A DNA stretch of 44,428 bases from Planctomycetota bacterium (lineage in GTDB: Bacteria; Planctomycetota; Phycisphaerae; SM23-33): NCBI GenBank assembly GCA_024275995.1, contig JAJRYB010000034.1, positions 1-44,428 on the forward strand, given 5' to 3'. Shown one piece after another: positions 17,300 through 44,428 of the stretch (the stretch's first letter is position 1; every line of letters starts with the position of its first letter). Position numbers and translations under genes: made by a program. The notes below the pieces were generated by a model. That model ran no database searches. It saw only the letters and a program-made list of their open reading frames with translations, and was not told where the DNA came from.

Positions 17300-18238
17300 A
17301 TGAGCGAGCCTCTCTCACATCCGCCGGCGTTCAGCGTGATAATGCCGGTTTACAACCACGCCGATTACGTCGCCGAGGCGATCCGTTCCGTGATCGGCCA
17401 GACGCTGACCGACTGGGAACTGATCGTGGTGGACGACGGTTCCACGGACGGAAGCGCCGAGCTGGTCGACCGACTGGGGGCGAAGGATGATCGCATAACC
17501 GTTCTGCACCAATCCAACGCCGGACCCGCCGCAGCAAGAAACGCCGCGCTGAATGTGGCGCGATCCGACTGGCTTGCCTACATCGACAGCGACGACGTGT
17601 GGTATCCTTCCGCGCTGGCGGACTACCACGCCTATATCCAAGGGCATCCGGAGGCGAGGTTCATTTATGGTTATCGCCACCGCCTCGGCGAAGACGGAGC
17701 GATCACGAAGCTCGCCGGGCAATTCCAGGACGCTCCGACCTCGACGCGCCATCTGTGGGGGCGAATGTTTCTATCCCACCTGTGCGTCTGCTACCGTCGG
17801 GAATTGCTGGCCGAGGCCGGTCCTTACGACGCCAACCTCCGCAGCTGCGAAGACTACGAACTGTACCTGCGGATCAGCCTGTACACACGGTTCGAACCGC
17901 TGGGCAAGGCGACAGGTCTGCGCCGACGGCACGGGACGAACCTCTCGCGTCAGACGGGTTTCAGCCGAATGCTCGAAGCCGGTGTGCTTCGGCGTTTCGT
18001 CGAGCGATACGGCGGCGAGAAGGTGCTGGACCGGCAGGCGGTGAACCATCGGCTAGGACGATTGTATTACTCAGCCGCCCGGCAATACTTCCGTGCGCGG
18101 TGTTACCGCCAGGCGATAGACGCAGCCGCTCTTGCCCATAAGTATCGACGAACGCTGAAGAGCACGATGGTCTCGCTGCTCGCCCGATGCCTGCTGCCGC
18201 TCGGCAGGGTGGATGGGCGAGAGCTTCCTGCTTTATGA
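17300..18238 (+). CDS. Family 2 glycosyltransferase
   Basis: 312 residues with a GT-A fold. FSVIMPVYNHADYVAEAIRS (11-30) is the first strand-loop-helix, VVDDGSTDGS (43-52) binds the nucleotide sugar, and DSDD (96-99) is the metal-binding DxD region. The C-terminal part (about 215-312) is basic and helical without membrane segments, so the enzyme is cytosolic or peripheral. It probably adds sugars to a surface polysaccharide or glycan; donor and acceptor cannot be named. Its end overlaps that of the convergent membrane-protein gene by 6 bases. No Shine-Dalgarno site, but a -10-like hexamer immediately upstream. Confidence 0.9.
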   Translation: MSEPLSHPPAFSVIMPVYNHADYVAEAIRSVIGQTLTDWELIVVDDGSTDGSAELVDRLGAKDDRITVLHQSNAGPAAARNAALNVARSDWLAYIDSDDVWYPSALADYHAYIQGHPEARFIYGYRHRLGEDGAITKLAGQFQDAPTSTRHLWGRMFLSHLCVCYRRELLAEAGPYDANLRSCEDYELYLRISLYTRFEPLGKATGLRRRHGTNLSRQTGFSRMLEAGVLRRFVERYGGEKVLDRQAVNHRLGRLYYSAARQYFRARCYRQAIDAAALAHKYRRTLKSTMVSLLARCLLPLGRVDGRELPAL

Positions 18239-20413
18239 CCCGTCGTCCTGGGCTCTCTGGCGTCGCTGGATATCCTGAAGGGTCAGGAGCAGCGCCCACG
18301 GGCGGATCGACCTTCGCGAGAATCCCGCCGGTTGGAGTATGCGAATAGCCCGGCAGTCCAGCTCGCCCGACCAGAGGTTTTTCAGACGTATCACCAGCGT
18401 TCCGGGGCGAATCGGCGGCCTGGAAACGTTCTCGACGGGACCCGCCAGCAGCAGGTCAATCCGATCGCGATTGAACTGGGCGATGAACCATCCAGACCCG
18501 ACCGCACTATGGAATGTCCTGGCGACGCGAATCGCCTCGAACAACCTTCTCCCCGACGCCTGCGTTCGCAGCAGCATTGCGCCTCCCGGATGAACGTGCC
18601 TGAAACACCGTCGCAGCGTGGTGAGGTTATACACTCGCCACGCCTGGAGATGGTCCGCCTCCATCGGGGCCAGGAGCACTCCGTCGAACCGCTCGGGAGC
18701 GATCTGTGCGGTCAGCAGAAAGCCGAACTTATCCGGGCGCGTCTGCCGAACGCCCCATGCGCTCGGCGACAAATGCAGCGCCGACGGGTCCGGACTGGAC
18801 AGCGCGACGCGCACGGACCGGTGCAGTCCCTGCGGGACGTCCTGCGGCGAGGAAGCGACGACCCACCACAGCCCCGGATGCGAGGCGATGATCGCATCCT
18901 GCCGGCGTCGCACCCAATCGCTGCGCCAGGGGTCTCTGAGCGGCAGGTATCGCATCGGCGCGGAGGAATCGCTTCCGGTTCGCATCGCGCTCAACCAGAC
19001 TCCCGGCGATATCGCGCGCCCCCCGTCCCGGATCGCCACCAGCGAGGCGAGAACCGTCACCGTCAACGAACAGAGCAGGACCGCTCCCCACAACGCCCAG
19101 AGCACCTGCCGTTTGGTGAGGCGGGTAATGGCGATCCCGTAAATGGGCGCCGCAGCAAGGACGGCGATGGCGCTTAGCAGCATCACCGCCCTTCCCTCCG
19201 GCAGCAGGCCCGCCGCGAGGCACGCAAGGAACCCCAGACCCAGCCCGAGGCAGATTTGCGAAACGTAGGTTCTCGCCCCGGCGCCCATTCTCGCAAAGTT
19301 GCGGCGCTGTCGCGACAGCAGCACAGCCGCCATCGCCATCAGCGGAATTTGCGCGAGCACCGCCAGCACCGCCGAAACTGCGGCGATGTTCGGCGACAGG
19401 AGGCATGATATTACCAGGGCGACCTGCAGCCCAAGACCCGCCGTTATGCCGATGATCGCGCCAAGCCCCTGTGCGCGTCCCGGCGCGGAGGACTTGTGAT
19501 CGACGATTCCCAGAAAGCCCGCCAGCAGGCTTACCGACAGTCCCGCCCAGCACATGCGTCCTTCCAGGCCCACGCCGGCGACGTCGCTCAGCAGGCGCAT
19601 CTGGATCACGAACGAAACCGCCATCGCCGCGAAAACGCCGCGTATCGACCAGGCGAGCGAACGTTGCGATCCCGCCTGCTCCGGACGCGCCGTCGGCGGC
19701 GGTGGACGAAGCGAAACCTTCTTCCGCTGGAGAAGCGCGACGCTCGATATGATCAGCAGCGCGCCCACCAGGACCGGCAGTCCCAGCAGGCTCAATCCCA
19801 GCCACCATGCAACTCCCAGTGCGGTCAAACCCAGCGCTATTGCCCACGTCCAGTCGCGGCAGATAGTGGCGTAGATATCCCTTCCACTGCCCCTCCGGAC
19901 AAGCGCCCCCGCGAAAAAGACCACGCAGATGCCAAGAGACATCGGAAGCATCGCCAGCAGCTGCACGCAGAACCGCGCCACCAGCCAGCCCCACCTTCCG
20001 AGCACGAACCACCGTGCGAGCCAGTCGATCAGGCCGCCGATCCAGTACGCCACCGCCGTGCTCACAAGGGCTCCCGCCACGGCGAGTATCGTCATCGCTC
20101 CGAGCAGACGCAGCAGGGCGCGCGCCTCGCGGGTTCCGACGCGCGGCATGGAAGCCGCTGCCAGTTCCACCGCGAGCGTTTCATGCACCTTCAACCACGA
20201 TAGCAGGCGCTGCATGAATCTTGCCGCCTTGCCCGGAAGGCGCACGGCGAACCACAGCGATAACATCGTAGCCGAGAGCGTCAGCAGGATCGCTCCACCG
20301 GAGGCGTCCATCGCTCGGGCCCATACCAGCGTTATGCATCCCATCCACGCCACCAGGGCGGCGGCGGAACCTATCACGAACGCCCTGTCGAGATGCTTGG
20401 GCTTCAGGGGCAA
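18233..20413 (-). CDS. Polytopic membrane protein with C-terminal spermidine-synthase-like domain
   Basis: About 726 residues from the TTG at 20413, which lies one base past the birA stop and has GGTGG upstream. The frame also extends to a TTG at 20482 (ATG at 20467), overlapping birA. Roughly the first 500 residues are about twelve hydrophobic segments. The last 230 residues are soluble, and RFDGVLLAPMEADHLQAWRVYNLTTLRRCFRHVHPGGAMLLRTQ recalls the end of spermidine-synthase Rossmann domains fused to transporter-like membrane parts. The SAM-binding glycine loop is not evident, so the domain may be inactive. Third gene of a minus-strand run nadC-birA-this. Function unknown. Confidence 0.75.
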   Translation of the reverse strand: MPLKPKHLDRAFVIGSAAALVAWMGCITLVWARAMDASGGAILLTLSATMLSLWFAVRLPGKAARFMQRLLSWLKVHETLAVELAAASMPRVGTREARALLRLLGAMTILAVAGALVSTAVAYWIGGLIDWLARWFVLGRWGWLVARFCVQLLAMLPMSLGICVVFFAGALVRRGSGRDIYATICRDWTWAIALGLTALGVAWWLGLSLLGLPVLVGALLIISSVALLQRKKVSLRPPPPTARPEQAGSQRSLAWSIRGVFAAMAVSFVIQMRLLSDVAGVGLEGRMCWAGLSVSLLAGFLGIVDHKSSAPGRAQGLGAIIGITAGLGLQVALVISCLLSPNIAAVSAVLAVLAQIPLMAMAAVLLSRQRRNFARMGAGARTYVSQICLGLGLGFLACLAAGLLPEGRAVMLLSAIAVLAAAPIYGIAITRLTKRQVLWALWGAVLLCSLTVTVLASLVAIRDGGRAISPGVWLSAMRTGSDSSAPMRYLPLRDPWRSDWVRRRQDAIIASHPGLWWVVASSPQDVPQGLHRSVRVALSSPDPSALHLSPSAWGVRQTRPDKFGFLLTAQIAPERFDGVLLAPMEADHLQAWRVYNLTTLRRCFRHVHPGGAMLLRTQASGRRLFEAIRVARTFHSAVGSGWFIAQFNRDRIDLLLAGPVENVSRPPIRPGTLVIRLKNLWSGELDCRAIRILQPAGFSRRSIRPWALLLTLQDIQRRQRAQDDGS

Positions 20414-20414
20414 C

Positions 20415-21380
20415 TCAGAGAACCACCGTTGAGCTTTCCGCAGGCAGGTGAACGTGCCTGCCGTCATCGCAGGAAAGGACAAGCCCCTCCAGCGGGCTGA
20501 CGTCCAGCACGGTTCCGACGTACGTTAGCCCTTTGCATTGCACCCGGAGGCGCTGGTGGACCATCCCGCAGCGCGACATCCAGGCGTCGTGTATCTCATC
20601 GAGCCGGCAGGAAGCGATACGCTCGATCGCGTCGTCCAGCCGACGGAGAATCGCCCTCGCCAGTTCGACGCGCTCGATCGGATCGTCGGTATGGAGCGCG
20701 AGATTCGTCGCCGGAGCGTCAACGGCGTCTCTCGGCGGCGATGCGCCGAGGTTGACCCCGATTCCTACCACCGTGGTGCTTGCCCCCCCCAACAGGCGCC
20801 GTTCCACGAGCACGCCGGCGAGCTTCTCGCCGTCCAGCGTCACGTCGTTCGGCCACTTGATCCGGCAGGCGACGCCGCAGGCAGCTTCCAGGCCCTGGGC
20901 GACACTCAGATCGGCCGCTATCGTCAGCGCTTCGTAAGGAAGGACGCGATCGGACTCCACCAGCAGCACGCTCATCAGCAGGTTTTTCCCCGGCGGGGAA
21001 AGCCAGCGACGACCCATTCGCCCGCGACCTTTCCGCTGATACTCCGCCAGCACGACCAACCCGTCGGCGTCCGCCTGGCGTGCGGAATCGAACGCGACGT
21101 CACTGGTCGATGCGACCTGCCCGAAGCATATCGCGTGCCTTCCGACGCGGCGCGTGCCCAGTTGCCGCTCGATAAGGTGGGCGTTGAGCGGCGCCGGGCG
21201 AACAAGACGCACGCCATGAGCGGGCGAAGCGTCGATGGAAAAACCTTCGCCGCAGAGAGAAGCGAGAATATCGTTCAACCGCTCGCGCGTAACGGAGACA
21301 GCCGCCGCCAACTCGTCGGGCCGCACGAACGCCCCTTCACGTTCGTATAGAATGTCCAGGACACTGTCGGCGCCGTTCAT
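20415..21380 (-). CDS. birA: Biotin-protein ligase, bifunctional type with HTH domain
   Basis: 321 residues. An N-terminal winged-helix (about 1-60, LAAAVSVTRERLNDILASL) indicates the BirA class that can also repress biotin genes. Ligase motifs: STSD (91-94), GRGRMGR (118-124, biotinyl-AMP loop), KWPND (175-179) and GIGVN (206-210). The C-terminal SH3-like cap is present (about 270-321). It attaches biotin to carboxyl-carrier subunits such as AccB. Its start overlaps the stop of nadC by 4 bases (ATGA), so the two are translationally coupled. No biotin synthesis genes are nearby. Confidence 0.95.
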   Translation of the reverse strand: MNGADSVLDILYEREGAFVRPDELAAAVSVTRERLNDILASLCGEGFSIDASPAHGVRLVRPAPLNAHLIERQLGTRRVGRHAICFGQVASTSDVAFDSARQADADGLVVLAEYQRKGRGRMGRRWLSPPGKNLLMSVLLVESDRVLPYEALTIAADLSVAQGLEAACGVACRIKWPNDVTLDGEKLAGVLVERRLLGGASTTVVGIGVNLGASPPRDAVDAPATNLALHTDDPIERVELARAILRRLDDAIERIASCRLDEIHDAWMSRCGMVHQRLRVQCKGLTYVGTVLDVSPLEGLVLSCDDGRHVHLPAESSTVVL

Positions 21381-32396: not shown

Positions 32397-34280
32397 ATGC
32401 GCAGCGATAATGTAAAGAAGGGGCTTGAGCGCGGGCCGCATCGAAGCCTGATGAAGGCGACGGGCCTCACCGACGGCGAGATTCGCAGGCCTTTCATCGC
32501 CGTGGTCAACAGTTAGACCGACGTCGTGCCCGGACACGTTCATCTGGACGCCGTCGGCGAGTTCGTCAAGCGCCAGGTCGCCGCCGCCGGTGGCACGCCC
32601 TTCCTGTTCAACACCATCGCGATCTGCGACGGTATCGCGATGGGACACGACGGTATGAAGTATTCGCTGGTGTCGCGAGAACTTATCGCCGACTGCGTCG
32701 AGAGCATGTGCGAGGCGCACCAGTTCGACGCGATGATCTGCATTCCCAACTGCGACAAGATCGTTCCTGGCATGCTCATGGGTGCGCTGCGATTGAACAT
32801 ACCGACGATCTTCGTCTCGGGCGGTCCGATGGAGGCCGGTCGGGTCGGAGGGTGCGACGTGGACCTGATCGACCAGTTCTACGCCGTCGCGCAGCAGGAG
32901 ATCGGAAAGATGTCTGCGCGGCAGGTCAAGCAGTTCGAAAACAACACCTGCCCGACCTGCGGATCGTGCAGCGGCATGTTCACCGCAAACAGCATGAACT
33001 GCCTTTGCGAAGCAATCGGAATCGCCCTTCCCGGCAACGGTACGTGCCTGGCGACAAGCCCTCAGAGGCTTGACCTGTGCAAACACGCCGCCGGGCGAAT
33101 CGTGAAGATGGCCACCCTGTGGAACCGCACGGGATGCGATGAGGCCTACCCCCTGCTACCGCGCAACATCATGAATAAAAAAGCCTTCGAAAACGCCTTC
33201 ACCGTCGATATGGCGATGGGCGGATCGAGCAACACGGTTCTCCACCTGCTGGCGATGGCGAGCGAAGCCGGCGTGAAGTTCAGCCTGAAGGACATCGACC
33301 GCGTCTCGAAGCGCACCCCGAACATCTGCCGCATCGCGCCGTCGGAAACTCCGGAAGGCAGGATTTACCACATGCAGGACTGCCACCGCGCCGGTGGAAT
33401 CGCAACGATAATGGACCAGCTCCGCAGCGATCGCAAAAGCCTTATCCACGGCGGATGCGCGTCCGTCACCGGCGAATCGGTGGACCGCAACCTCGCGAAA
33501 TGGTCGCTTCGCAGTGAAAAGCCATGCCCGGCTGCGAAAAAAATGTATCGCGAAGGGTGGAAGGCGACGGGCCGAAGTGTCGAAGAAGTCCGCGCAATGT
33601 ACCGCGGGACCAGGCCGAAAAAACTACCGACGAAAAATACGGGCCGATTGAACGCCATGGATGTCATTCGTCCGCTGGATCGCGCCTTCACGAAACGCGG
33701 CGCGCTGGTGGTGCTGTACGGCAACATCGCCAGGTCCGGGGCAATCGTGAAGCAATCCGGCCTGGACCCGTCGATGCTCCGCTTCACGGGGCGGGCTGTC
33801 ATCTGCGAACGTCAGGAAGACGCCTGTCGGATCATCCTTGACGGGAAGGTGCGCTCCGGCGACGTGGTGGTTATCCGCAACGAAGGGCCCAAGGGCGGGC
33901 CAGGAATGCAGGAAATGCTCGCGCCGACAAGCTACATCAAAAGCCTGGGCCTGTACGACAAGTGCTTCCTGATAACCGACGGACGATTCTCCGGCGGGAC
34001 GAGCGGACCGAGCATCGGGCACGTCGCACCCGAAGCCGCCGCGGGCGGGGAGATCGGCCTGCTGAAAAACGGCGACGTTATCGAGATAGACATCCCCGCC
34101 GGGAAATTGAACGCGAAGGTCTCCCAGGCGGAGTTCGCACGTCGGCGAAAGCGGTATCGCCCGCGCGTGGCGCCTATCCGTCACGGCGCGCTGGGTCGCT
34201 ACGCCGCCTGCGCAACCAGCGCCGACACCGGCGCCGTCCTGGACTGGCCTGGAAAAAATAAGGTAGCCGGGAGCCGGTAG
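32397..34280 (+). pseudogene. ilvD: Dihydroxy-acid dehydratase gene (ilvD) interrupted by in-frame TAG at codon 40
   Basis: The frame from ATG 32397 (AGGAG at 32386-32390) encodes a normal IlvD start, [32 protein letters not shown]..., then meets TAG at 32514-32516 within IAVVNS-stop-TDVVPGHVHL. E. coli IlvD has Phe here (NSFTQFVPGH). The frame then stays open for another 587 codons with all family hallmarks: DGIAMGHDGM, NCDKIVPGM, CPTCGSCSGMFTANSMNCL (Fe-S cluster and active site), GPKGGPGMQEM, ITDGRFSGGTSG and an E. coli-type C-terminus. IlvD makes 2-keto acids for valine, leucine and isoleucine. A truncated product could start at GTG 32526 but would lack the first 43 residues. Point mutation, sequence error or readthrough are all possible; see findings. 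The GC-rich end is followed by T5 (34285-34289). Confidence 0.9.
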
Positions 34281-34361
34281 CCCGTTTTTCGGGGACATGC
34301 GAGCGCGCGATGGCACTTTCTGTTCCCGGCGTGGAATCCCATCTTAAGAGGTAAGGAAATA

Positions 34362-35192
34362 ATGGAACTTACGGGGAAACTTGACGAAGGTGATAATTGT
34401 GTTTTTAGAAAATTGGGCGTGATCTGCGGCAAAATCGAAAGTGAAATGAGAACTCTTCGAAAGGGATTTGTAAAGGACAGCTTGACCCAACTCTATAATG
34501 ATCTGTCCGCTTTGGTCGGAACTGTGCTAAGCCTCTGCCAATTGGAAAAAACATCGTCGCAGGCGACATGCGTGCTCGCGAGAGCTGTGCTCGATAGCTG
34601 CATATCAATCTTCGCCTTTTGTAAAAATCCCAAGCAGCGAGCACTTCTCTATAAAAACTTCACAGCGATCCTCGATTGGAAATTCGTGTGTTTAGACGAT
34701 ATGTACGAACCAGTTCCCTCTGCTCCGAAAGACTACGAGCAACGCTTGCAAGCTCGCAAGAAATGCTCAAAGCGCAACGTAGAGAAACATGGTGAGCCGT
34801 ATCTCAATTCTGAGGGAAAAGGGAAAACACCTTCAAATATCTTGACAGAAGCTATTCGCAAGGAGAAAGAAGGACTGACACAGTTCCGGAACCAATGGTA
34901 TCCTGAAAGACGCAGGAAAATCCTCCAAGATGAGGGAATGGGTTGGGTATATGACACTTGGTACATACGGTTTTGCTCAGCGATTCATTCTGATTCCGCA
35001 GCTTCCAGGCTCTTTGCAGGAACACCACGCAGGAACATGATAACCTTGGTCTTCGAATTCTGGAGTGCGGCGATATGTAAGATCGTTGATACTTTCAAAA
35101 TAAGATTGTCGTCGAAAGATAAATATTTTCTTCGAATCTATTCTTCTGCCTGTACAGGTAAAAGCCTCAAAAAGGATATCCGCGAAAGTTAA
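34362..35192 (+). CDS. DUF5677-like protein of unknown function
   Basis: 276 residues. An N-terminal helical part (about 40-75, LTQLYNDLSALVGTVLSLCQL) leads to ATCVLARAVLDSCISIFAF. A distal segment has WVYDTWYIRFCSAIHSDSAA (about 205-225). Together these resemble the DUF5677 family, helical proteins often found near defence or mobile genes. The coding sequence is visibly richer in A/T than all its neighbours, suggesting recent transfer. AGG and ATG 34362 are acceptably spaced. It lies directly before an MntA-HepT toxin-antitoxin pair, which makes a small accessory islet. The family call is tentative. Confidence 0.6.
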   Translation: MELTGKLDEGDNCVFRKLGVICGKIESEMRTLRKGFVKDSLTQLYNDLSALVGTVLSLCQLEKTSSQATCVLARAVLDSCISIFAFCKNPKQRALLYKNFTAILDWKFVCLDDMYEPVPSAPKDYEQRLQARKKCSKRNVEKHGEPYLNSEGKGKTPSNILTEAIRKEKEGLTQFRNQWYPERRRKILQDEGMGWVYDTWYIRFCSAIHSDSAASRLFAGTPRRNMITLVFEFWSAAICKIVDTFKIRLSSKDKYFLRIYSSACTGKSLKKDIRES

Positions 35193-35250
35193 AGAACCAC
35201 TAACTGGATCGAATTATAGCCCCCTGCGTTTGCGTTTTCCGCCCAAGTTG

Positions 35251-35279
35251 TTGTCGAATAGGCCTAAGCGTGGGATAAT
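35251..35279 (+). promoter_or_regulatory. Promoter of the mntA-hepT pair
   Basis: TTGTCG (35251-35256), a 17-base spacer and GATAAT (35274-35279). The -10 ends 6 bases before ATG 35286, so the mRNA should start at the initiation codon. Confidence 0.6.
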
Positions 35280-35285
35280 ACGCCT

Positions 35286-35576
35286 ATGACCGTTTCGGAA
35301 CTACTGGACGACAAAAGGGAACAGATACTCCGCCTCGCTGAACAGCGCGGCGCGCGGAATGTACGAGTCTTCGGCTCTTTCGCACGCGGCGATGCCGACG
35401 AGAACAGCGACGTGGATTTCCTCGTGGACCTGGAAGAGGGACGAAGCCTGTTCGACCTGGGCGGCCTGCTCATGGATATTCAGGAACTCCTCCAGCGAGA
35501 GGTGGACGTGGTCACGGAAAACTCGCTTCACTGGTACATCCGCGATCGCGTGCTCGAAGAAGCGGTGGCATTATGA
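35286..35576 (+). CDS. mntA: MntA-family minimal nucleotidyltransferase antitoxin
   Basis: 96 residues. It has exactly the GSX10DXD signature of MntA: G30-S31, then D42 and D44 (GSFARGDADENSDVDFLV). In the characterised MntA-HepT system the antitoxin adds AMP groups to the toxin's Tyr and so blocks its RNase activity. It overlaps hepT by 4 bases (ATGA), giving translational coupling. A promoter is visible immediately upstream and there is no ribosome site. Confidence 0.92.
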   Translation: MTVSELLDDKREQILRLAEQRGARNVRVFGSFARGDADENSDVDFLVDLEEGRSLFDLGGLLMDIQELLQREVDVVTENSLHWYIRDRVLEEAVAL

Positions 35577-35896
35577 AAGACGATAAGCTGTATCTGATTC
35601 ACATTACCGAATGCATCGCTCGCATCGAAAAATATGTCACGGGAGGCCGCGAAGAGTTCATCAACTCGTCTCTTATCCAAGACGCTGTCGTGCGGAATCT
35701 TCAAGTGCTCGCAGAATCGACACAGAGACTTTCCGATAATCTGAAAAACAAAATTCCTGAAGTGGATTGGAAAAGCATCTCCGGGTTCAGGAACATTCTG
35801 GTCCACGACTATCTCGGAGTGGACGTAGACCGTATCTGGCAAATCATTCAGACCGATCTGCCCACCCTCAAGGCAGCAATCAACAAGTTCCAGTAA
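35573..35896 (+). CDS. hepT: HepT-family HEPN RNase toxin
   Basis: 107 residues, HEPN fold (DUF86). The catalytic RX4HXY motif is intact as R73-NILV-H78-D-Y80 (FRNILVHDYLG), Tyr80 being the residue AMPylated by MntA in characterised pairs. Helical throughout. Known HepT proteins are tRNA- or mRNA-cleaving toxins. Coupled to mntA by a 4-base overlap. It ends 10 bases before a convergent lipoprotein gene. The pair looks functional, since both motifs are complete. Confidence 0.92.
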   Translation: MKDDKLYLIHITECIARIEKYVTGGREEFINSSLIQDAVVRNLQVLAESTQRLSDNLKNKIPEVDWKSISGFRNILVHDYLGVDVDRIWQIIQTDLPTLKAAINKFQ

Positions 35897-35905
35897 TCCT
35901 CCGCC

Positions 35906-36265
35906 TCAGCGCCCATGGTACGGCGCGTGGCGCGTCGGGCCGATAATCCCGCGCGGCGTGATCTGCACGTACATCCTGCCGGGCGTGTGCTTGTTGACGG
36001 TAAAATCAGTCTCGTGCTTGCCCGCCTCCAGCTCGAAATCCGCCGGAAGGTCCTTTTCCTCGATCACCATCGTGTAATCGAACCTTCCACCCGCGGCGAC
36101 GTATCCTATGTCCTCCTCGCCGGTGTGCGGACCTTCAAGTTCAAGCTCAGCCGAGCGATCGGTGTGATTGATGAACGTCAGGCGGATCGTCTTGTCGCAG
36201 CCGGCCGTCGCCGACGCAACGATCAGCAGAAACGCCCCGGCCAACTTCGGAAATGTCCCGATCAT
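35906..36265 (-). CDS. Small lipoprotein of unknown function
   Basis: 119 residues. Signal MIGTFPKLAGAFLLIVASATAGC with Cys at 23. The mature part (TIRLTFINHTDRSAELELEGP...DIGYVAAGGRFDYTMVIEEKDLPADFELEAGKHETDFTV) reads as a single beta-sandwich, possibly a periplasmic binding or structural domain. No family recognised. AGGAG lies 6 bases before ATG 36265. Convergent with hepT, divergent from the GNAT gene. Confidence 0.82.
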   Translation of the reverse strand: MIGTFPKLAGAFLLIVASATAGCDKTIRLTFINHTDRSAELELEGPHTGEEDIGYVAAGGRFDYTMVIEEKDLPADFELEAGKHETDFTVNKHTPGRMYVQITPRGIIGPTRHAPYHGR

Positions 36266-36382
36266 GTCCGCTCCTTTTCCCGTGGGGCCGAAGTCCTGAT
36301 AGGGTTCTGAATCCGTAACTCTTACCCGTAATAATACATCCGACGAACCTCGCGAGGCAAGCTAATCGGGTCTCGCCATTCC

Positions 36383-36979
36383 ATGCTGCGTCGTGATAAT
36401 ATCGCAGCGAAAGTGAGCCTGTCATTGCACACGGAAGACCTGCAACTTGTCGAGCCGTCGCGGAAGTTCGAAGATAACTTCCTGGCGATGGCTGCGGAGT
36501 ATCTCCGCGAGGGCGACAAGTATGAGAAGGAACGATACCGCGCCGCGATCCGGGACTTTTCCGCCTACCTCCGCGGGCTGCACGATGCCGCCAAAGGCGT
36601 CGCCCTTCCGGAAGGACACGTCCCCGCGACGACGTACTGGCTTGTCCGCGACGGCGAAACCATCGTCGCCACCAGCAGCATTCGTCACTGGTTGACGCCT
36701 TCGCTGCTGCACGAGGGGGGACACGTCGGATATGGTACGCGACCTTCCGAGCGGCGTAAGGGTTACGGAAAGATCGTCTGTGCAAAAACGCTGGAAAAGG
36801 CCGGGGAGATGGGTCTCGATCGCGTGCTCATAACGTGCGACACAGATAACACAGCCTCGGCGAAGATCATCCAAGCCAACGGTGGCGCTCTGGAGAACCG
36901 GGTGATCGCGCACACGACGGGCAAGCAGAAGAACCGCTACTGGATAGACGTGCAGACCGCCCGGCCAGGTGTGTTATAA
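36383..36979 (+). CDS. GNAT-family N-acetyltransferase
   Basis: 198 residues from ATG 36383. The acetyl-CoA binding motif is GHVGYGTRPSERRKGYGKIVC (about 113-133), followed by AKTLEKAGEMGLDRVLITCDTDNTASAKIIQANGGAL, a very typical GNAT strand-helix-strand. The N-terminal part (SLSLHTEDLQLVEPSRKF...) suits a start nearer GTG 36413, which follows a GATAAT hexamer (36395-36400) by 12 bases; ATG and GTG are both possible. Related proteins acetylate small molecules, antibiotics or protein N-termini; the substrate is unknown. Confidence 0.85.
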   Translation: MLRRDNIAAKVSLSLHTEDLQLVEPSRKFEDNFLAMAAEYLREGDKYEKERYRAAIRDFSAYLRGLHDAAKGVALPEGHVPATTYWLVRDGETIVATSSIRHWLTPSLLHEGGHVGYGTRPSERRKGYGKIVCAKTLEKAGEMGLDRVLITCDTDNTASAKIIQANGGALENRVIAHTTGKQKNRYWIDVQTARPGVL

Positions 36980-37083
36980 CGGTGTGGAAGATACGTGCTG
37001 CGATATGTCCATCAAGGGCATGAAGGGGTATTTCGTCGCTTTCGACATGGCCCCGGTTGAAAATTGATTCCCATGGAGATGAC

Positions 37084-38382
37084 ATGAAGACCGTCAAACT
37101 GCTTTACGGAAAAGATGGAATGACCCTTGGCGTTCCGGACGGCGTTTTGGTGCTGGAAGGCGAACATGTGCCGGCGATCGAAAATATCGACCTCGCCGTC
37201 GCCGGCGCGCTGGAAAGCCCGATAGCTTCGCCGCCGCTGGCGGAGCTGGTCGCACGCAAGAAACCCAGGACCGTCGCGATTACCGTAAGCGATATCACCC
37301 GGCCGGTTCCGAACAGCGATTTTCTGCCCGCGATGCTGGAAGTGCTGAATGCCGCCGGCGTGGATGACTGCGATATCGTAATCGTAATCGGCACCGGCAT
37401 GCATCGGCCCAGCACGCCGGAGGAACGGAGGATCATTCTCGGCGAGGACGTCCTTGCCCGTATCGAGGTGATCGACCACCGCGCGGACGATTCCGAAACG
37501 CTCGTGAAGGTCTGCGACTACCCGCCGGTAAGCATCTGCCGGCGCTTCGCCGAGGCGGACTTCCGCATCGTCACCGGGTACATCGAGCCGCACTTCATGG
37601 CCGGCTTCTCCGGCGGTCGCAAAGGCGTCTGCCCGGCGCTGGTGGACCTGGCGACCGTCCAGCGTTTCCACGGCTTCGACACGCTTGCCAGCGACCAGGC
37701 GGACAGTGGAATTCTCGAAGGCAACCCCTGCCACGAGATAGCCTCGAAGGTCGCAACCGTCGTCGGGGTAGACTTCCTGTTCAACGTCGCGATAACGCGA
37801 GAGCACCGCACCGCAGGCATCTACTGCGGCGACCTGTTCGCCGCACACAAGGCCGGCTGCGAGCAGGTCGCACGCTGGACCACCGTCGAAATCGACGGTC
37901 CGTTCGATTTCGTTATAACCAACGGCGGCGGATTCCCGCTCGACCAGACGTTCTACCAGACGGTCAAGGGCATGTGCACCGCGCTTCCGGCGATGGGCGG
38001 GAAAACCACGATGCTCCAGGTGTCCCGCTGCAACGAGCGGCTCGGCAGCAAGGTATACACGGACCTGCTGCTGAAATGGGGACACGACTGGCGCGGATTC
38101 CTTGCGGATATCGAAGCGAACAGGAAGGAAACGAAGCTCGACCAGTGGGAGTTCCAGATGCAGTGCCGGGTGCTGGAATGCATCGGACGGGATAACCTGT
38201 GGTTCGTCTCGGACGGCATAGACGCCGACGTGCAGAAGCGAATCGCCGTCAACGCGATACTCGGCGACGGTTCCGCTCAGACCCGTGCCCAACGCGCGAT
38301 CGACCAATACGTCGCTGACAATCCAGACGCGCGAATAGCCGTGATTCCCGACGGACCCTACACGATGCTCAGCATCAAGTAG
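37084..38382 (+). CDS. LarA-like nickel-pincer-cofactor racemase/epimerase
   Basis: 432 residues, about the length of lactate racemase LarA. Key residues of Lactiplantibacillus LarA (D72, R75, H108, H174, K184, H200) correspond to D70, R73 (SDITRP), H107 (GTGMHRP), H170 (GYIEPHF), K180 (SGGRKGVCP) and H196. The Lys carries the nickel-pincer nucleotide in LarA, so this protein is probably active with that cofactor. Substrate range in the family is wide (lactate, malate, other 2-hydroxy acids). None of the cofactor genes larB, larC or larE is in the window. ATG 37084 has GGAGA 4-5 bases upstream. The rest of the protein matches the family without truncation. Confidence 0.85.
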   Translation: MKTVKLLYGKDGMTLGVPDGVLVLEGEHVPAIENIDLAVAGALESPIASPPLAELVARKKPRTVAITVSDITRPVPNSDFLPAMLEVLNAAGVDDCDIVIVIGTGMHRPSTPEERRIILGEDVLARIEVIDHRADDSETLVKVCDYPPVSICRRFAEADFRIVTGYIEPHFMAGFSGGRKGVCPALVDLATVQRFHGFDTLASDQADSGILEGNPCHEIASKVATVVGVDFLFNVAITREHRTAGIYCGDLFAAHKAGCEQVARWTTVEIDGPFDFVITNGGGFPLDQTFYQTVKGMCTALPAMGGKTTMLQVSRCNERLGSKVYTDLLLKWGHDWRGFLADIEANRKETKLDQWEFQMQCRVLECIGRDNLWFVSDGIDADVQKRIAVNAILGDGSAQTRAQRAIDQYVADNPDARIAVIPDGPYTMLSIK

Positions 38383-38391
38383 TCCGGGTTT

Positions 38392-38949
38392 TCAGGCGAC
38401 GCTCACCATGGCGCCGTTGCTCCACGCGCGTGCCATGCGTTTGGGCTGCCTGTGGGACCGGCACCACTCGGCGAGGACGGCCTGGATCTGCTGAAAGTGG
38501 TCCCCCGTCTCGATTACGCCCCAGGTATTATCGCTGCGCGTGCGAAATGTATCCATGTCCACCAGCACGGCGCCCAGCATCACGTTGACGTGCATTGAGC
38601 CCGCGTCGATAAGCGTTCCCTCGCGGCCCAACAGTCGCTCGCACATGTCCTCGCTCACAAGGAGCACAGCGAACGTTCCCATCTTCCTGGGCCAGGGGAA
38701 TCCGCCGGCGTATTCCTTCGCCAGCGACTTGCGCAATTTCCCGATAAATTCCCCGGCCCCGCGAACGTCCTGCACGCCGGTCGGAAGCTGCGCCACCGCA
38801 CACGCGAGTTTCGGCGATCTCTTGCCGTCGGTCGTGAACGCAGCCGCGATTTCCACATCGCCGATGCGTCCGGCGGTGCGCCCGGTGTACCCGAGCAGGC
38901 CAAGTCGTTCGCTCAATCCTTCGATAATTTCTTTCACGTGATCGGTCAT
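38392..38949 (-). CDS. Conserved-looking protein of unknown function
   Basis: 185 residues from ATG 38949; upstream codons in the same frame (to 39069) look like repeat sequence. The product has a regular alpha/beta pattern: a helix at the start (VKEIIEGLSERLGLLGYTG), strands IAAAFTT and TFAVLLVSEDM, and a C-terminal helix-basic tail. No catalytic motif or domain is recognised. Convergent with the LarA-like gene (9 bases between stops). The Arg/Lys-rich end may bind nucleic acid or be an assembly signal (inference). Confidence 0.65.
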   Translation of the reverse strand: MTDHVKEIIEGLSERLGLLGYTGRTAGRIGDVEIAAAFTTDGKRSPKLACAVAQLPTGVQDVRGAGEFIGKLRKSLAKEYAGGFPWPRKMGTFAVLLVSEDMCERLLGREGTLIDAGSMHVNVMLGAVLVDMDTFRTRSDNTWGVIETGDHFQQIQAVLAEWCRSHRQPKRMARAWSNGAMVSVA

Positions 38950-39271
38950 GGCATTTTCTCGCACTTGTTCACTTAAAAACGGATCGCCGGTTTTTCGTTT
39001 TTCGCATCGGACTGTTAGACGCTTGCGACCTTCCGACGGTTCCAGAAAATCCGGAATCCACGATCTCAAATTTCAAATCTGAAATCTCCATTCTCAAAGC
39101 ATAAAAACCGCTACGTCCGGAAAAACGTATTCTGAAAGTATTTATTGCCGAAATGCCTCCGATTCGCAAAAAAACGGTCCAGAAACAGCACGAATTGCAA
39201 AAAAGAAGATCGCCCGCGCTGAGGCTGTCGGGCCCGCGGCGCCGGCGATCGTTAAATCGGACGGGGCTGTT
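38950..39271. other. Intergenic region with dispersed repeat and serA terminator
   Basis: A 40-bp stretch at 39061-39099 (CTCAAATTTCAAATCTGAAATCTC) looks like a dispersed low-complexity repeat. Two short Phe/Lys-rich A/T segments flank it. The right part holds the serA terminator hairpin. No gene is supported. Confidence 0.6.
39199..39250 (-). terminator. Putative terminator after serA
   Basis: On the minus strand GATCGCC (39250-39244) pairs with GGCGATC (39214-39208), with inner GC-rich pairing, followed by TTCTTTTTT (39207-39199). Confidence 0.6.
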
Positions 39272-40873
39272 TCACGGCATCAGGCCGGGAAGCTCCATGG
39301 CGTGGACGCTTTCGATGTTTTCCATTGTGCGGATCGTGTCCAGAACGCTCTCGTTGGGCGCCTGGTCCAGGTTCACGCACAGGATGGTCTTTCCGGATTT
39401 CTTCCGCGAGAAGGTCATGTCCGCGATGTTAATCGAGTTATCGCCCAGGATCGTGCCGACCTTCCCGACCAGTCCCGGCATGTCGTGTTTGTGGAACATC
39501 ACAACAACGTGCCCTTCCGGCCTCATCTCAACCCGGAACCCGTCCAGCGCGATTACCCGCGGGAACTTGCTGCCGAAGATCGTTCCCACCGCCGTTCTGC
39601 AGGCCTGGTCCGTGTGGACGGAAACCTGGATCAGGTTCGAGAACTCCTTCACCTTCGCGGAGGTGATCTGTTCGACCTCCACCCCGCGCTGCTCGGCGAG
39701 CAGGGGCGCGTTGATCACGTTGACCAGCTGGTCCAGGTGGGGCTGCAACAGTCCCACGAGCAGATACGTTGTTATCGGCGAAACGTTCTGCTCGGAGATT
39801 CCACCGCGATAAACGATTTCGATCTTGCTCAGCGCGCCCGGCGTTATATGCGTCAGGATAGTTCCCATCCGCCGCGCAAGTTCCGTATACGACCTCATGG
39901 TTTCCGGTAGCGACTGCCCGAAACCAGGCGCGTTGACGGCGTTTCGCACCTCGCCGCCGCGAAGCGCCTCGACGAGCTGCATCGCCGCCTCGATCGCCAC
40001 CTGTTCCTGGGCTTCCTCGGTAGAAGCGCCCAGGTGCGGAACCGCCAGCACGTTGGGATGCTGGATCAGCTTCTTCTCCACTTCGCTTTCCGGCGGTTCG
40101 GAAGTGTAGACGTCCAGCGCCGCCCCGGCGATCCTGCCCTCGATCAGCGCCTCCAGCAGCGCCGCCGGATCGATAATCCCGCCGCGCGCCGCATTGATCA
40201 CGCGCGCGGTCGGCTTGGTGCAGGCGAACTGCTCCCGCCCGATCATGCCCTCGGTCTCCGGCGTTTTCGGCGTGTGCACGGTGATATAATCCGCACGTTT
40301 GCACAACTCGTTGAGGTCCTTGACCATCTCGATATCTTCGCTCACCTGCCCTGCGAAGAACGGGTCGAACCCCAGCACACGCATCTCCATCGCCCTGGCG
40401 CGCTTCGCAACCGCCCTTCCGACGCGACCCATCCCCACGATGCCCAGCGTCTTGGACGCCATCTGCGTTCCCTGGAACGCCTTGCGGTTCCACTCGCCAC
40501 TTCGCAGCGACTCGCTGGCGGGGGAAATTTTCCGCGACAGCGCCATCATCAGCGTCATTGCCAGTTCCGCCGTGGAAAGCGTGTTTCCGCCCGGCGTGTT
40601 CATGACGACGATGCCCTTTTCCGTCGCAAGCGGTACGTCCACGTTGTCCACACCCACCCCGGCGCGAGCGATGCCTCGCAATTTACCTGGGTTTTCCAGC
40701 ACGGTCGAGTTCACCTTGGCGCCGGAGCGGATGATCATTCCGTCGTAATCGCCAACGACTTTCGCCAGCTCGTCCGGCGCCAGGTCCGGCATGATCGCCA
40801 CTTCAACGTCGTCCTGCGATTGCAGCCAGTCGATACCGACCTGGCTGAGTTTGTCGGCTATCAGTATCTTCAC
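39272..40873 (-). CDS. serA: D-3-phosphoglycerate dehydrogenase (three-domain type)
   Basis: 533 residues, the long form with an intervening (ASB) domain and a C-terminal ACT domain (about 455-533), both expected for serine feedback. NAD-binding GMGRVG (147-152), substrate Arg in AARGG (230) and catalytic His in PHLGAST (280) are all present. It catalyses the first step of serine synthesis from 3-phosphoglycerate. It follows the class V aminotransferase by 16 bases, a pairing known in archaea and several bacteria where the aminotransferase is the candidate for the second step. Start ATG 40873; terminator downstream. Confidence 0.95.
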   Translation of the reverse strand: MKILIADKLSQVGIDWLQSQDDVEVAIMPDLAPDELAKVVGDYDGMIIRSGAKVNSTVLENPGKLRGIARAGVGVDNVDVPLATEKGIVVMNTPGGNTLSTAELAMTLMMALSRKISPASESLRSGEWNRKAFQGTQMASKTLGIVGMGRVGRAVAKRARAMEMRVLGFDPFFAGQVSEDIEMVKDLNELCKRADYITVHTPKTPETEGMIGREQFACTKPTARVINAARGGIIDPAALLEALIEGRIAGAALDVYTSEPPESEVEKKLIQHPNVLAVPHLGASTEEAQEQVAIEAAMQLVEALRGGEVRNAVNAPGFGQSLPETMRSYTELARRMGTILTHITPGALSKIEIVYRGGISEQNVSPITTYLLVGLLQPHLDQLVNVINAPLLAEQRGVEVEQITSAKVKEFSNLIQVSVHTDQACRTAVGTIFGSKFPRVIALDGFRVEMRPEGHVVVMFHKHDMPGLVGKVGTILGDNSINIADMTFSRKKSGKTILCVNLDQAPNESVLDTIRTMENIESVHAMELPGLMP

Positions 40874-40889
40874 TTTTCGCCCTCCTTTC

Positions 40890-42023
40890 CTAACGCCAGT
40901 CCCTGAGAATTTTCGTCGCCGTCGCGGTCGCTTTTCCGATCTCGACGCTCGCGCCGCAATCGGACAGTGCGTATTCCATCGCCGCGATCAGCCCGATCGT
41001 GTCCAGCGGGTCCACGTATCCCAGGTGCGAGATGCGGCAGAGTTTGCCCTTGAGCTTTTCCTGCCCGCCCGCGACGGACGCGCCGTACTTGTCCTGCAGA
41101 ACCTTGCGGAACCTGTCGTCCACGCCGGCAGGGTACAGCAGTCCCGTCACCGAATCGCTCGGTTGGCGGCTGAAGACCTTCATTCCCATTTCGACCGCCG
41201 CTTCGCGCATCGCCCCGGCGAGCAGGGAAACGCGCTCCCATAGCGTCTCGATACCGACGCCGTTAATCATGTCCACGGCAACCTTCAGCCCGCGGATAAG
41301 ACTCACCGGACCGGTATAGGGCGTGTCGTCTTTCGCGATCGATTTGCGATACGCGCGCAGGTCCAGGTAGAAACCGCGCGGTTTCTGTGCGTCGATGACC
41401 TTCCACGCCCTCTCGCTGACCGATAGAAACGCCAGTCCCGGAGGAAGCATGAACGCCTTCTGGCTGCCGGAGGCGACGATGTCCACGCCCCATTCGTCCG
41501 TCTTGAGCGGCAGCGCTCCGCACGCGGTAATCGCATCCACGATAAGGATCGCGTCCGTTTCCCGAACGACGCGGGCGATCGCTTCCATATCGCACGCCGT
41601 CGCAGTGGATGTCTCGCTGTAAACCGTAACGACCGCGCCGTAATCGCCGGTGGCGAGTTTTTCCTTCACCGTCTCGGCCGACAGGGCCGTGCCCCATTCG
41701 AGCTTCACTTCATCGGTGTCCAGGGCGTATCGCTTTGCGATTTTCACCCATCGCTCGCCGAACTTTCCACCGTCCGCCACCAGCACCTTCCTGTCGCGCG
41801 GAACCGCCTCGGCAATGGCTGCCTCCATTCCGGCAGTACCGCTGCCGGCTATCGTCAGCACGTCGTTGTCCGTCATGAAAATCTTCTTCATACCGGCGGA
41901 TACCTCCGCGAACATCTCGCGGAATCGCGGCGTGCGGTGATGGAACATCGGCCTGGCCATTTCCACCAGCACTTCCGGTGGAACGTCAGTGGGACCGGGG
42001 GTGAATAATCGCTGCTTGATCAT
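40890..42023 (-). CDS. Class V aminotransferase (serine pathway partner of SerA)
   Basis: 377 residues. The PLP lysine is K189 in SGSQKAFMLPPGLAF. SGTAGMEAA (61-69) and VDAITACGALPL are the cofactor-binding and substrate loops of the alanine-glyoxylate/serine-pyruvate aminotransferase group. In methanogens and others this protein sits beside serA and is proposed to transaminate phosphohydroxypyruvate; the exact amino donor cannot be read here. The ATG at 42023 with GGAGA 9 bases upstream is preferred; the frame is open upstream to 42230 but that part looks like leader. Confidence 0.88.
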   Translation of the reverse strand: MIKQRLFTPGPTDVPPEVLVEMARPMFHHRTPRFREMFAEVSAGMKKIFMTDNDVLTIAGSGTAGMEAAIAEAVPRDRKVLVADGGKFGERWVKIAKRYALDTDEVKLEWGTALSAETVKEKLATGDYGAVVTVYSETSTATACDMEAIARVVRETDAILIVDAITACGALPLKTDEWGVDIVASGSQKAFMLPPGLAFLSVSERAWKVIDAQKPRGFYLDLRAYRKSIAKDDTPYTGPVSLIRGLKVAVDMINGVGIETLWERVSLLAGAMREAAVEMGMKVFSRQPSDSVTGLLYPAGVDDRFRKVLQDKYGASVAGGQEKLKGKLCRISHLGYVDPLDTIGLIAAMEYALSDCGASVEIGKATATATKILRDWR

Positions 42024-42230
42024 GAGATGTTTCTCCGATAGCGGCTGGGCAACAGGAACAAGCCGGCAGCGCCGCAGCCCCTTGCTACGGTTGCCGCCTG
42101 TCGCAGGATTCTTTTTGTATCGCCCGACGCGCCGCACCTGCATCCGCTGGTAAAAACCCCCAGGCGCCCGGGTTTCAACGGGAAGATTATCCGTCCCCGA
42201 AACCCCTGTCAAGCGACAAAGGTCATCCAC
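42024..42230 (-). promoter_or_regulatory. Possible structured leader of the aminotransferase-serA operon
   Basis: About 200 nt before the aminotransferase contain a GGCAACC motif followed by a 7-bp stem CCGTAGC-AAGGG-GCTGCGG and further GC-rich pairing. The frame is open but the residues are unlike the family. No known riboswitch is identified. Confidence 0.35.
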
Positions 42231-42281: not shown

Positions 42282-44428
42282 GTGATACGGAAAAACGCCA
42301 TACAAAACGCCCTGATTGTAATGGGAATGCTCCTGGCAGCCGTTTCGGCGTCCGCCGGCGACGACGCGACAAAACCGGCTGCGGACGAAAAAGTGCTCTT
42401 CACTTTCGCCATATTCGGGGACAACAAGGGCGGAGGAAAGGTGCTGGAAGGCGTCTTCGAAAACTTCAAACGAATCAGGGTGTCATTCATGCTCGGCATG
42501 GGCGACCACTTCCAATCCAAGGCGCAGATCGATTCGTGGAACGGATCGATTCGGAAGGTCTACGGCAATACGAAAAGCTTCTACCGGCGGTTGTACCTGA
42601 CCGCCGGCGATAACGAAGCCCAGGCCTATTCCGGCAAGCAAACCAACGCCGGGGCAGAACGACCGTTTTTTTACATGGCCGGCCTTTTCGACGCGAAAAC
42701 GGACAAGCCCCTGCGTGACACGATCGTCGATTACGATCGGAAGTTCCTGGACTACTACGCGCAGCTCAACATAAACGGACTGCGTGTGCACCTGCTGAAC
42801 CTCTACGATCAGGACGCCGTTCCGATGGACCGCGTAACGTGGAACTTCGCCAGCCGAATTGCCGGGAAGGTCCGCAAGGAATACCGCGGCCAGCCGTGGA
42901 TTGTGATGGCGCACGACGGGCCGTGGTGGCGATCGTATTTCAGGAAGGGGCACGATATATACTTCTGCGACCTGCTGCTGGGCGCGAGCTGGCACAGGTA
43001 TCTCTGCTTCGGAGCCGAGGGCGGAGGGACCAACCTGGCGTTCAATACATCCGCCGTCGCGTACAACGACAGCAGTTGGTACGCCGTGATGGTTATGAAG
43101 GACAAGTTCGTACTGCTGAACATTTCGGACAAGAAGCTGGAGGTCAAGGGCAAACCCGGCTGCCACGTCAAACCGTTCGGAAAAAAAGGATACGCCGGCG
43201 ACGCATCGGCGTGGTTCGATCTGCTCAAAAAATACGGGCGCAGCGGAAAGGGCGATTGGGGGCCGCTTCCGGAAGGTCCGAAAAAGAGCGTCAAAACGCC
43301 CCGCGAGGTCAAGGTGTACGCGGCCGTGATCGACTTCAAGACAATCGCGGACCGCAAGGCTGCATCGCCCTACGGCGAGCAGTTGGCCGACAGCGTGCGC
43401 CTGGGACTTCGCCGCACCAGACAAATGGAGGTTATCGATCGCCTGACGACGCGCGACCTGTCCGGTCCGCTCGGGCTTGAAACACCGGCGGAGAAAGTCC
43501 GCCGTCTCATGGCCGAGAAGATCGGCGCTAACCTTGCGCTGTACGGCTCGGTGCAGAAGGCAGGCGACGTAGTGCGGGCGGAGGTCCGCTGCATCGACCT
43601 GAGAGACCCGAAAAAGCCCGTCATGTGGACGAAAGTCTTTTCCGATGAAACACAGCGAGCGCGGTCCGTGATAGCCCGCGGGATTGTCGAAGCGGCAATC
43701 GGAAAGCAGCTTTGGCGACCGCCCGAGTACGGCGATGAGCCGGAGCCGAAGAATTTCGCCAGGCCCCTGAACGCCAACGGAAGTTTCGACGAAGGTTCCG
43801 GCGGGTGGGATCGTCCCGATAACGTCAGCACGTTTATCGAAGACGGTCCTGCCGGTCGCGGCAGGATTCTTCGCGTACGCACCGACCTCGAGCGCGATCC
43901 CTGGCTGGCGTATCGCAGGGCGCTTCGGATGGGCAAGGCCGACCCCGGCAAGCCCCCGAAGATCAGGCGCGACGTGAGTTACGGATCCGTCGCGGGGCTG
44001 GAGGGCGTGCATTATCGCAGCGAGTGGATCAAGGCGACGCCCGGGCAGCGATACTGGCTCGTCGTGGACATGAAGGGCAAGATGTCAGGCATGTTCTTTC
44101 CGAAGGTCTTCGTGAAAGGCTTTCGCAGGACCGTCGCCGGCGAAGACGGGCTTTCGGAAAGCTCCCTTGCGGCGCTTGGGCTTACGCCGAAGCAATTCGC
44201 CGCCCTTCCCGAGGACAAACGTCGGAAGCTCATCAAAACCGACGCCAAAAAACATCCGATGCGCCATCTGCGCGAATCTTACCGGTGGTACCTCGCCTGC
44301 CGAAACGATCAGAACGCCTGGATGCACTTCGCCGCGCCGTTTCCTCCGCGCGGCGGTCTGCCGAAAGACGTCGAGTTCCTCCAGATACAGATTTACTCGT
44401 ACTGGCCGCCCGGCGAATACCTGTGGGA
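42282..44428 (+). CDS. Large secreted multidomain protein: phosphoesterase-like, CsgG/TolB-like, CBM-like (3' end cut)
   Basis: The frame is open from GTG 42282 to the last base (over 715 residues). A signal peptide covers about 1-25 (ALIVMGMLLAAVSASA). Residues about 38-240 follow the pattern of a divergent calcineurin-like phosphoesterase: GDN (46-48), GMGDHF (72-77), AGDNE (108-112, in place of GNHD/E), AHDG (210-213) and a late His (238); the usual first DxH is missing, so activity is uncertain. About 345-470 resembles CsgG/TolB-type domains (KVYAAVIDF...EQLADSVRLGLRRTRQMEVIDRL...GANLALYGSV). About 497-615 (NANGSFDEGSGGWDRPD...YRSEWIKATPGQRYWLVVDM) looks like a family 4/9 carbohydrate-binding module. 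All domain calls are by motif. Confidence 0.75.
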   Translation, partial: MIRKNAIQNALIVMGMLLAAVSASAGDDATKPAADEKVLFTFAIFGDNKGGGKVLEGVFENFKRIRVSFMLGMGDHFQSKAQIDSWNGSIRKVYGNTKSFYRRLYLTAGDNEAQAYSGKQTNAGAERPFFYMAGLFDAKTDKPLRDTIVDYDRKFLDYYAQLNINGLRVHLLNLYDQDAVPMDRVTWNFASRIAGKVRKEYRGQPWIVMAHDGPWWRSYFRKGHDIYFCDLLLGASWHRYLCFGAEGGGTNLAFNTSAVAYNDSSWYAVMVMKDKFVLLNISDKKLEVKGKPGCHVKPFGKKGYAGDASAWFDLLKKYGRSGKGDWGPLPEGPKKSVKTPREVKVYAAVIDFKTIADRKAASPYGEQLADSVRLGLRRTRQMEVIDRLTTRDLSGPLGLETPAEKVRRLMAEKIGANLALYGSVQKAGDVVRAEVRCIDLRDPKKPVMWTKVFSDETQRARSVIARGIVEAAIGKQLWRPPEYGDEPEPKNFARPLNANGSFDEGSGGWDRPDNVSTFIEDGPAGRGRILRVRTDLERDPWLAYRRALRMGKADPGKPPKIRRDVSYGSVAGLEGVHYRSEWIKATPGQRYWLVVDMKGKMSGMFFPKVFVKGFRRTVAGEDGLSESSLAALGLTPKQFAALPEDKRRKLIKTDAKKHPMRHLRESYRWYLACRNDQNAWMHFAAPFPPRGGLPKDVEFLQIQIYSYWPPGEYLW

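Follow-up and report, generated by a model that had tools for sequence, protein, structure and literature searches.

In metallophosphoesterases of the calcineurin-like superfamily, the motif residues have established roles in metal binding and catalysis; an active enzyme is expected to carry GNH(D/E), with the catalytic histidine, and GHxH, with two metal-binding histidines. The N-terminal domain of TolB shares its alpha-beta fold with PelC, CsgG, LpoB and FlgT; in TolB this domain is accompanied by a C-terminal beta-propeller, while CsgG is an outer-membrane lipoprotein with a lipobox. CBM16 and CBM4 have a beta-sandwich jelly-roll fold. Among the papers searched, none described an architecture in which these three folds are joined.

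The window analyzed here (the whole stretch of 44,428 bases) is an entire contig of a 2.64 Mb planctomycete draft genome in 134 contigs, and the last gene in it encodes all three folds in a single frame (Table 1). A first-pass annotation had proposed a secreted protein that combines a divergent phosphoesterase, a CsgG/TolB-like domain and a sugar-binding-like module, an arrangement not known to it as a standard architecture.

Table 1. Location of the fusion gene, its domains and motifs, and the conserved neighboring genes in the window.
Feature	Residues	Position	Strand	Evidence or remark
Whole fusion gene		42282..44426	+	GTG start, 715 codons visible, 3' end lost at contig end
Signal peptide	1-25 (ASA before GDD)	42282..42356	+	sequence, hydropathy
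Calcineurin-like metallophosphoesterase domain	35-318	42384..43235	+	held-out profile, phylum search, fold matches
Motif I, FGDN	Asp47	42414..42425	+	group consensus GDR, without His
Motif II, GDHF	Asp75	42501..42512	+	motif alignment
Motif III, GDNE	109-112	42606..42617	+	GNHD in the group; Asn in place of the catalytic His
Motif IV, MAHD	His211 (retained)	42906..42917	+	motif alignment
Motif V, ASWH	235-238	42984..42995	+	GHxH in the group; Ser in place of the first His, last His retained
Fusion linker	319-341	43236..43304	+	alignment; hydrophobic stretch absent
TolB-N/FlgT/CsgG-like alpha-beta domain	342-479	43305..43718	+	pLDDT mostly over 90; TolB 6pnv, Z 14.4
CBM16/CBM4-like jelly roll with family-specific helical insert	490-715 (incomplete)	43749..44426	+	2zey, 2y64 matches
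Class V aminotransferase, divergent neighbor		40890..42230	-	adjoins stand-alone gene in five relatives
serA (phosphoglycerate dehydrogenase), second conserved neighbor		39272..40873	-	neighborhood comparison

Gene structure and domain composition

The frame of the fusion gene contains no internal stops and runs off the end of the window, as had been noted in the first-pass annotation; since the window is the entire contig, the truncation is due to the assembly and not to the choice of window. The proteins of relatives end a median of 35 aa (range 10-52) beyond the truncation point, therefore little of the fusion protein is missing, and the missing 3' end was not found, the last 200 bases having no match of useful length in any other contig. 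Codon usage was that of the neighboring genes along the full frame and did not fall off at the domain junction (in-frame codon log-odds of about +0.2 to +0.4, negative in the other forward frames). A signal peptide of ordinary type (MIRKNAIQNALIVMGMLLAAVSASA, followed by GDD) is evident, and the protein is presumably exported, in agreement with the earlier call of a secreted protein.

From about residue 340 onward, the structure model of the full protein was confident (mostly over 90 pLDDT). The second domain matched TolB over 125 residues (rmsd 2.7), with further fold matches to FlgT (Z 13.0), PelC (11.2) and CsgG (9.4). Unlike TolB, the fusion protein has no beta-propeller, a confident jelly roll being found in its place; its signal peptide, unlike that of CsgG, lacks a lipobox, and flagellar, curli and Pel genes do not lie alongside. 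The third domain matched CBM16 (2zey, Z 12.2, rmsd 3.1 over 132 residues) and CBM4-2 (2y64, Z 10.9), with which it shares the jelly-roll fold, but differs from them in sequence (about 10-14% identity), in a large helical insert and in that no glycoside hydrolase is attached. Trp509 and Trp708 are conserved in this domain. The helical stretch (approximately residues 619-662) was absent from the class-level relatives L058-L063 and is therefore considered an insert of this lineage; a weak DUF6844 match located on it was dismissed as chance. Among Pfam profiles, CBM_4_9 matched only one of 34 family members (E 0.033) and not the fusion protein itself, and FlgO gave a marginal match (E 0.0025) in single members of the family.

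The N-terminal domain scored 17.7 bits (best of 300 shuffles, 2.6) against a profile of 16 relatives built without the window, a value that carries a mild circularity, because those relatives had been collected using a profile that included the window. Independent of that profile, single-sequence searches matched the domain to secreted planctomycete phosphoesterases (L066 at 3.9e-5 and L067 at 0.008 in the phylum search, L065 at 0.007), of which L066 is a clear Metallophos (3.1e-14) plus Laminin_G_3 (2.6e-18) protein. Identity to phosphoesterase relatives was only about 19-23%, and the Pfam profile PF00149 (Metallophos) gave no match to the N-terminal region at E values up to 1. The domain was unresolved in the first full-protein model; a second model of this domain showed a recognizable fold, yet with low confidence (mean pLDDT 57, pTM 0.62). 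The alignment used for the latter consisted of phosphoesterase relatives selected so that all five motifs align, while a larger alignment (A4) that misplaced motif III was left out of folding. The top Foldseek rows for the second model belonged to the calcineurin-like superfamily, VIA Z scores to this superfamily reached 16.7, and the leading fold matches included Mre11, Rv0805 and a purple acid phosphatase; the four-layer alpha-beta-beta-alpha sandwich of the PF00149 superfamily was observed, in this low-confidence model guided by phosphoesterase relatives. Searches of plasmids and viral contigs with the N-terminal domain returned nothing, a PDB sequence search gave no useful match for the phosphoesterase or the C-terminal part, and no convincing match was found to DUF-type or phage families. 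Homology and structure prediction thus back three separate domains of the folds that the first-pass annotation had named, with neither a merging of the regions into one known fold nor a loss of support for the three-domain division.

A stand-alone two-domain family

A whole-protein search of 150 related genomes matched only residues from about 340 to 715. This C-terminal part was present in 23 of the 34 other genomes of the taxonomic family, 45-65% identical and in frames of its own, and weaker matches were found in other genomes of the order and class; the best alignment to this stand-alone family had an E value of 1.6e-161. The stand-alone proteins (an unnamed family, e.g. L032, L033 and L049) are mostly about 390-500 aa long, have both domains immediately after an N-terminal signal peptide of their own, and end shortly past the truncation point of the fusion protein. 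Alignment with them runs end to end over both domains, including the linker PPEYGDEPEP and the helical insert. They have no phosphoesterase domain, whereas the fusion protein carries that domain with its signal peptide instead, and the signal peptide that precedes the TolB-N domain in the stand-alone family is missing from the fusion linker, according to alignment and hydropathy. The two-domain arrangement, with paralogues, was detected by profile across the class, and a remote member (L064) carries the second of the two domains only.

Judged from these sequences, domains two and three together make up a single secreted protein family that existed before the fusion, and the phosphoesterase alone is new. 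The earlier view of a novel joining of three parts has consequently to be narrowed to the N-terminal addition. Pieces of long frames (800-1200 aa; G099:C36, G164:C30, G015:C211 and G223:C26) were likewise matched by the TolB-N portion of the profile, so the class probably contains further architectures with TolB-N.

Altered motifs of the phosphoesterase domain

The first-pass annotation had described late metal ligands as kept and the first DxH as absent, which is inaccurate. The histidine of DxH was lacking in 29 of the 30 distinct relatives with a readable motif I (the exception being L093, with DAH), and since the group has GDR or similar at this position, its absence is normal and not distinctive of the fusion protein. 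Asp47, Asp75, His211 and His238 are retained; the statement on late ligands holds for the two histidines, while the first histidine of GHxH is lost. The distinctive departures from the 30 relatives are found in motif III, which reads GDNE instead of GNHD, and in motif V, with ASWH in place of GHxH, and in this sense the domain is indeed divergent. By motif alignment, the usual catalytic histidine and one metal-binding histidine are gone, leaving one histidine in motif V; Asp110 could bind metal in place of the asparagine, so that some catalysis may persist. Among the 30 distinct relatives, both histidine losses occurred elsewhere only in L101 and L105. Degenerate members therefore exist in the phosphoesterase group, these two having lost motifs in other ways: in both of these phosphoesterase-like planctomycete proteins motifs II, III and V are degenerate (GN, GRRD/GPRD, GGTQ/GDTC), and they are likely pseudo-phosphoesterases.

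Secreted Metallophos proteins of about 670-890 aa with a motif I (GDRTGG) devoid of histidine are recurrent in the phylum (L065, L066, L067, L077-L084). As in the fusion protein, these Metallophos plus LamG proteins (L066 tested, the others alike in the phosphoesterase part) are secreted and have GDR/GDN without histidine in motif I, and in L066 the domain is joined to a sugar-binding-like module. They retain GNHD and GHxH, however, which the fusion protein does not, and the C-terminal module of L066 is a LamG (concanavalin A-like) domain, whereas the fusion protein has the TolB-N and CBM16-like domains.

Genomic context and origin of the fusion

In four relatives (L041, L049, L050 and L055) the stand-alone gene is divergent to the same aminotransferase-serA pair that precedes the fusion gene; in L053, where the contig start cuts the stretch, the aminotransferase alone is visible beside it. 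The slot before the stand-alone gene is occupied by an acetolactate decarboxylase in L049 (Pfam 7e-82) and by similar frames in L041 and L050, by a radical SAM-like frame in L053 (judged from translation alone), and is empty in L055. In L049, 12 bases separate the end of the slot gene from the family gene, and the two share a reading frame. At the fusion locus, the phosphoesterase occupies the slot and reads in frame into the TolB-N domain, the second signal peptide is lost, and homology to the relatives begins directly past their signal peptide. In the tree, the C-terminal half of the fusion protein branched within the family with moderate support.

Residues 1-333 had no single-sequence match in any other of the 150 related genomes, and the loci fetched from the relatives contained no phosphoesterase in any frame. 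The search for the same architecture that had been suggested in the first-pass annotation found none among the 150 relatives or the loci fetched for either half, nor did single-sequence searches of the class and the phylum, with about 390 genomes each, return it, so that the fusion was found in one genome only among those searched. Apart from the aminotransferase-serA neighborhood in a subset of genomes, no conserved operon was detected.

Several other features were recorded around these loci. The acetolactate decarboxylase directly upstream of the family gene (5531-6298 in L049, same position in L041 and L050) has a secretion-like N-terminus; in L041 this stretch has runs of N. In the window, ilvD, larA, serA and the class V aminotransferase lie in a single stretch (32526-42230), and an ilvD-like gene near serA is also present in L041, L049 and L050. 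A 749-aa frame (18233-20482, minus strand) had no Pfam match at 0.001, and its coordinates overlap with the end of the frame that follows (20415-21380).

Sequence comparison shows that the ancestral protein was a stand-alone secreted protein composed of a signal peptide, a TolB-N-like and a CBM16/CBM4-like domain, which lost its own signal peptide and gained, in frame, an upstream secreted calcineurin-like phosphoesterase domain together with the signal peptide of the latter. The gene is a lineage-specific fusion, a reading that is well supported, as are the folds.

Two explanations based on error were weighed against this reading. That an assembly chimera or a missed stop codon joined two neighboring genes or unrelated pieces is favored by the single draft genome in many contigs, the position of the gene at a contig end and the single occurrence of the fusion, but is very unlikely: the aminotransferase-serA pair upstream also adjoins the stand-alone gene in five relatives, codon usage is uniform and native across the junction, the downstream protein has lost its signal peptide, which one miscalled stop cannot explain, and the locus looks like an ordinary fusion of tandem genes. 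It is harder still to credit that the N-terminal region is some other alpha-beta domain with motif matches arising by chance. The failure of the Pfam Metallophos profile and the low identity to relatives would fit that explanation, yet the held-out profile score lies far above the best shuffle, a single sequence matched a Metallophos protein (L066), the five motifs keep their order and spacing, and the leading fold matches are to the calcineurin-like superfamily.

Possible functions of the fusion protein

While the secretion signal, domains, folds, fusion and altered motifs are seen in the sequence and models, the function is in all respects inferred. The preferred reading, to which we assign a probability of roughly 0.55, is that of a glycan-binding envelope adaptor, arisen by lineage-specific fusion, with a catalytically weakened or dead phosphoesterase. 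The jelly roll would bind a cell-surface or matrix polysaccharide. The TolB-N-like domain may act as a protein-protein or oligomerization module, as does the same fold in TolB, PelC, LpoB and CsgG. With the GNH(D/E) histidine and one of the metal-binding histidines of GHxH replaced, the phosphoesterase domain would have weak or no catalysis. Its main role, kept in place at the glycan, may be structural or the binding of a ligand or metal.

A less probable alternative is that the phosphoesterase is active, in which case the fusion would target a working secreted phosphatase or phosphodiesterase to a polysaccharide. The four retained motif residues, the potential of Asp110 to replace the metal-binding asparagine, and the pairing of the same domain type with a C-terminal lectin-like LamG in a close relative (L066) are consistent with activity; the loss of both histidines, shared among the relatives only with the degenerate-looking L101 and L105, argues against it. 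More speculative, and rather doubtful, is that an envelope scaffold specific to planctomycetes, made of a ring- or complex-forming TolB-N module and a glycan-binding module, has recruited a secreted pseudo-phosphoesterase to sense or clamp a ligand; if true, the result would be a novel type of protein that recognizes surface glycans or phosphoglycans.

All parts of the protein are known folds, two of the three belonging to one existing family, and within the genomes searched the fusion seems to be unique; one lineage is seen adding a degenerate phosphoesterase to a two-domain family. The conserved, uncharacterized two-domain planctomycete family is a more useful lead than the single-case fusion, and its combination of TolB-N and glycan-binding domains suggests a role in the poorly understood planctomycete cell envelope.
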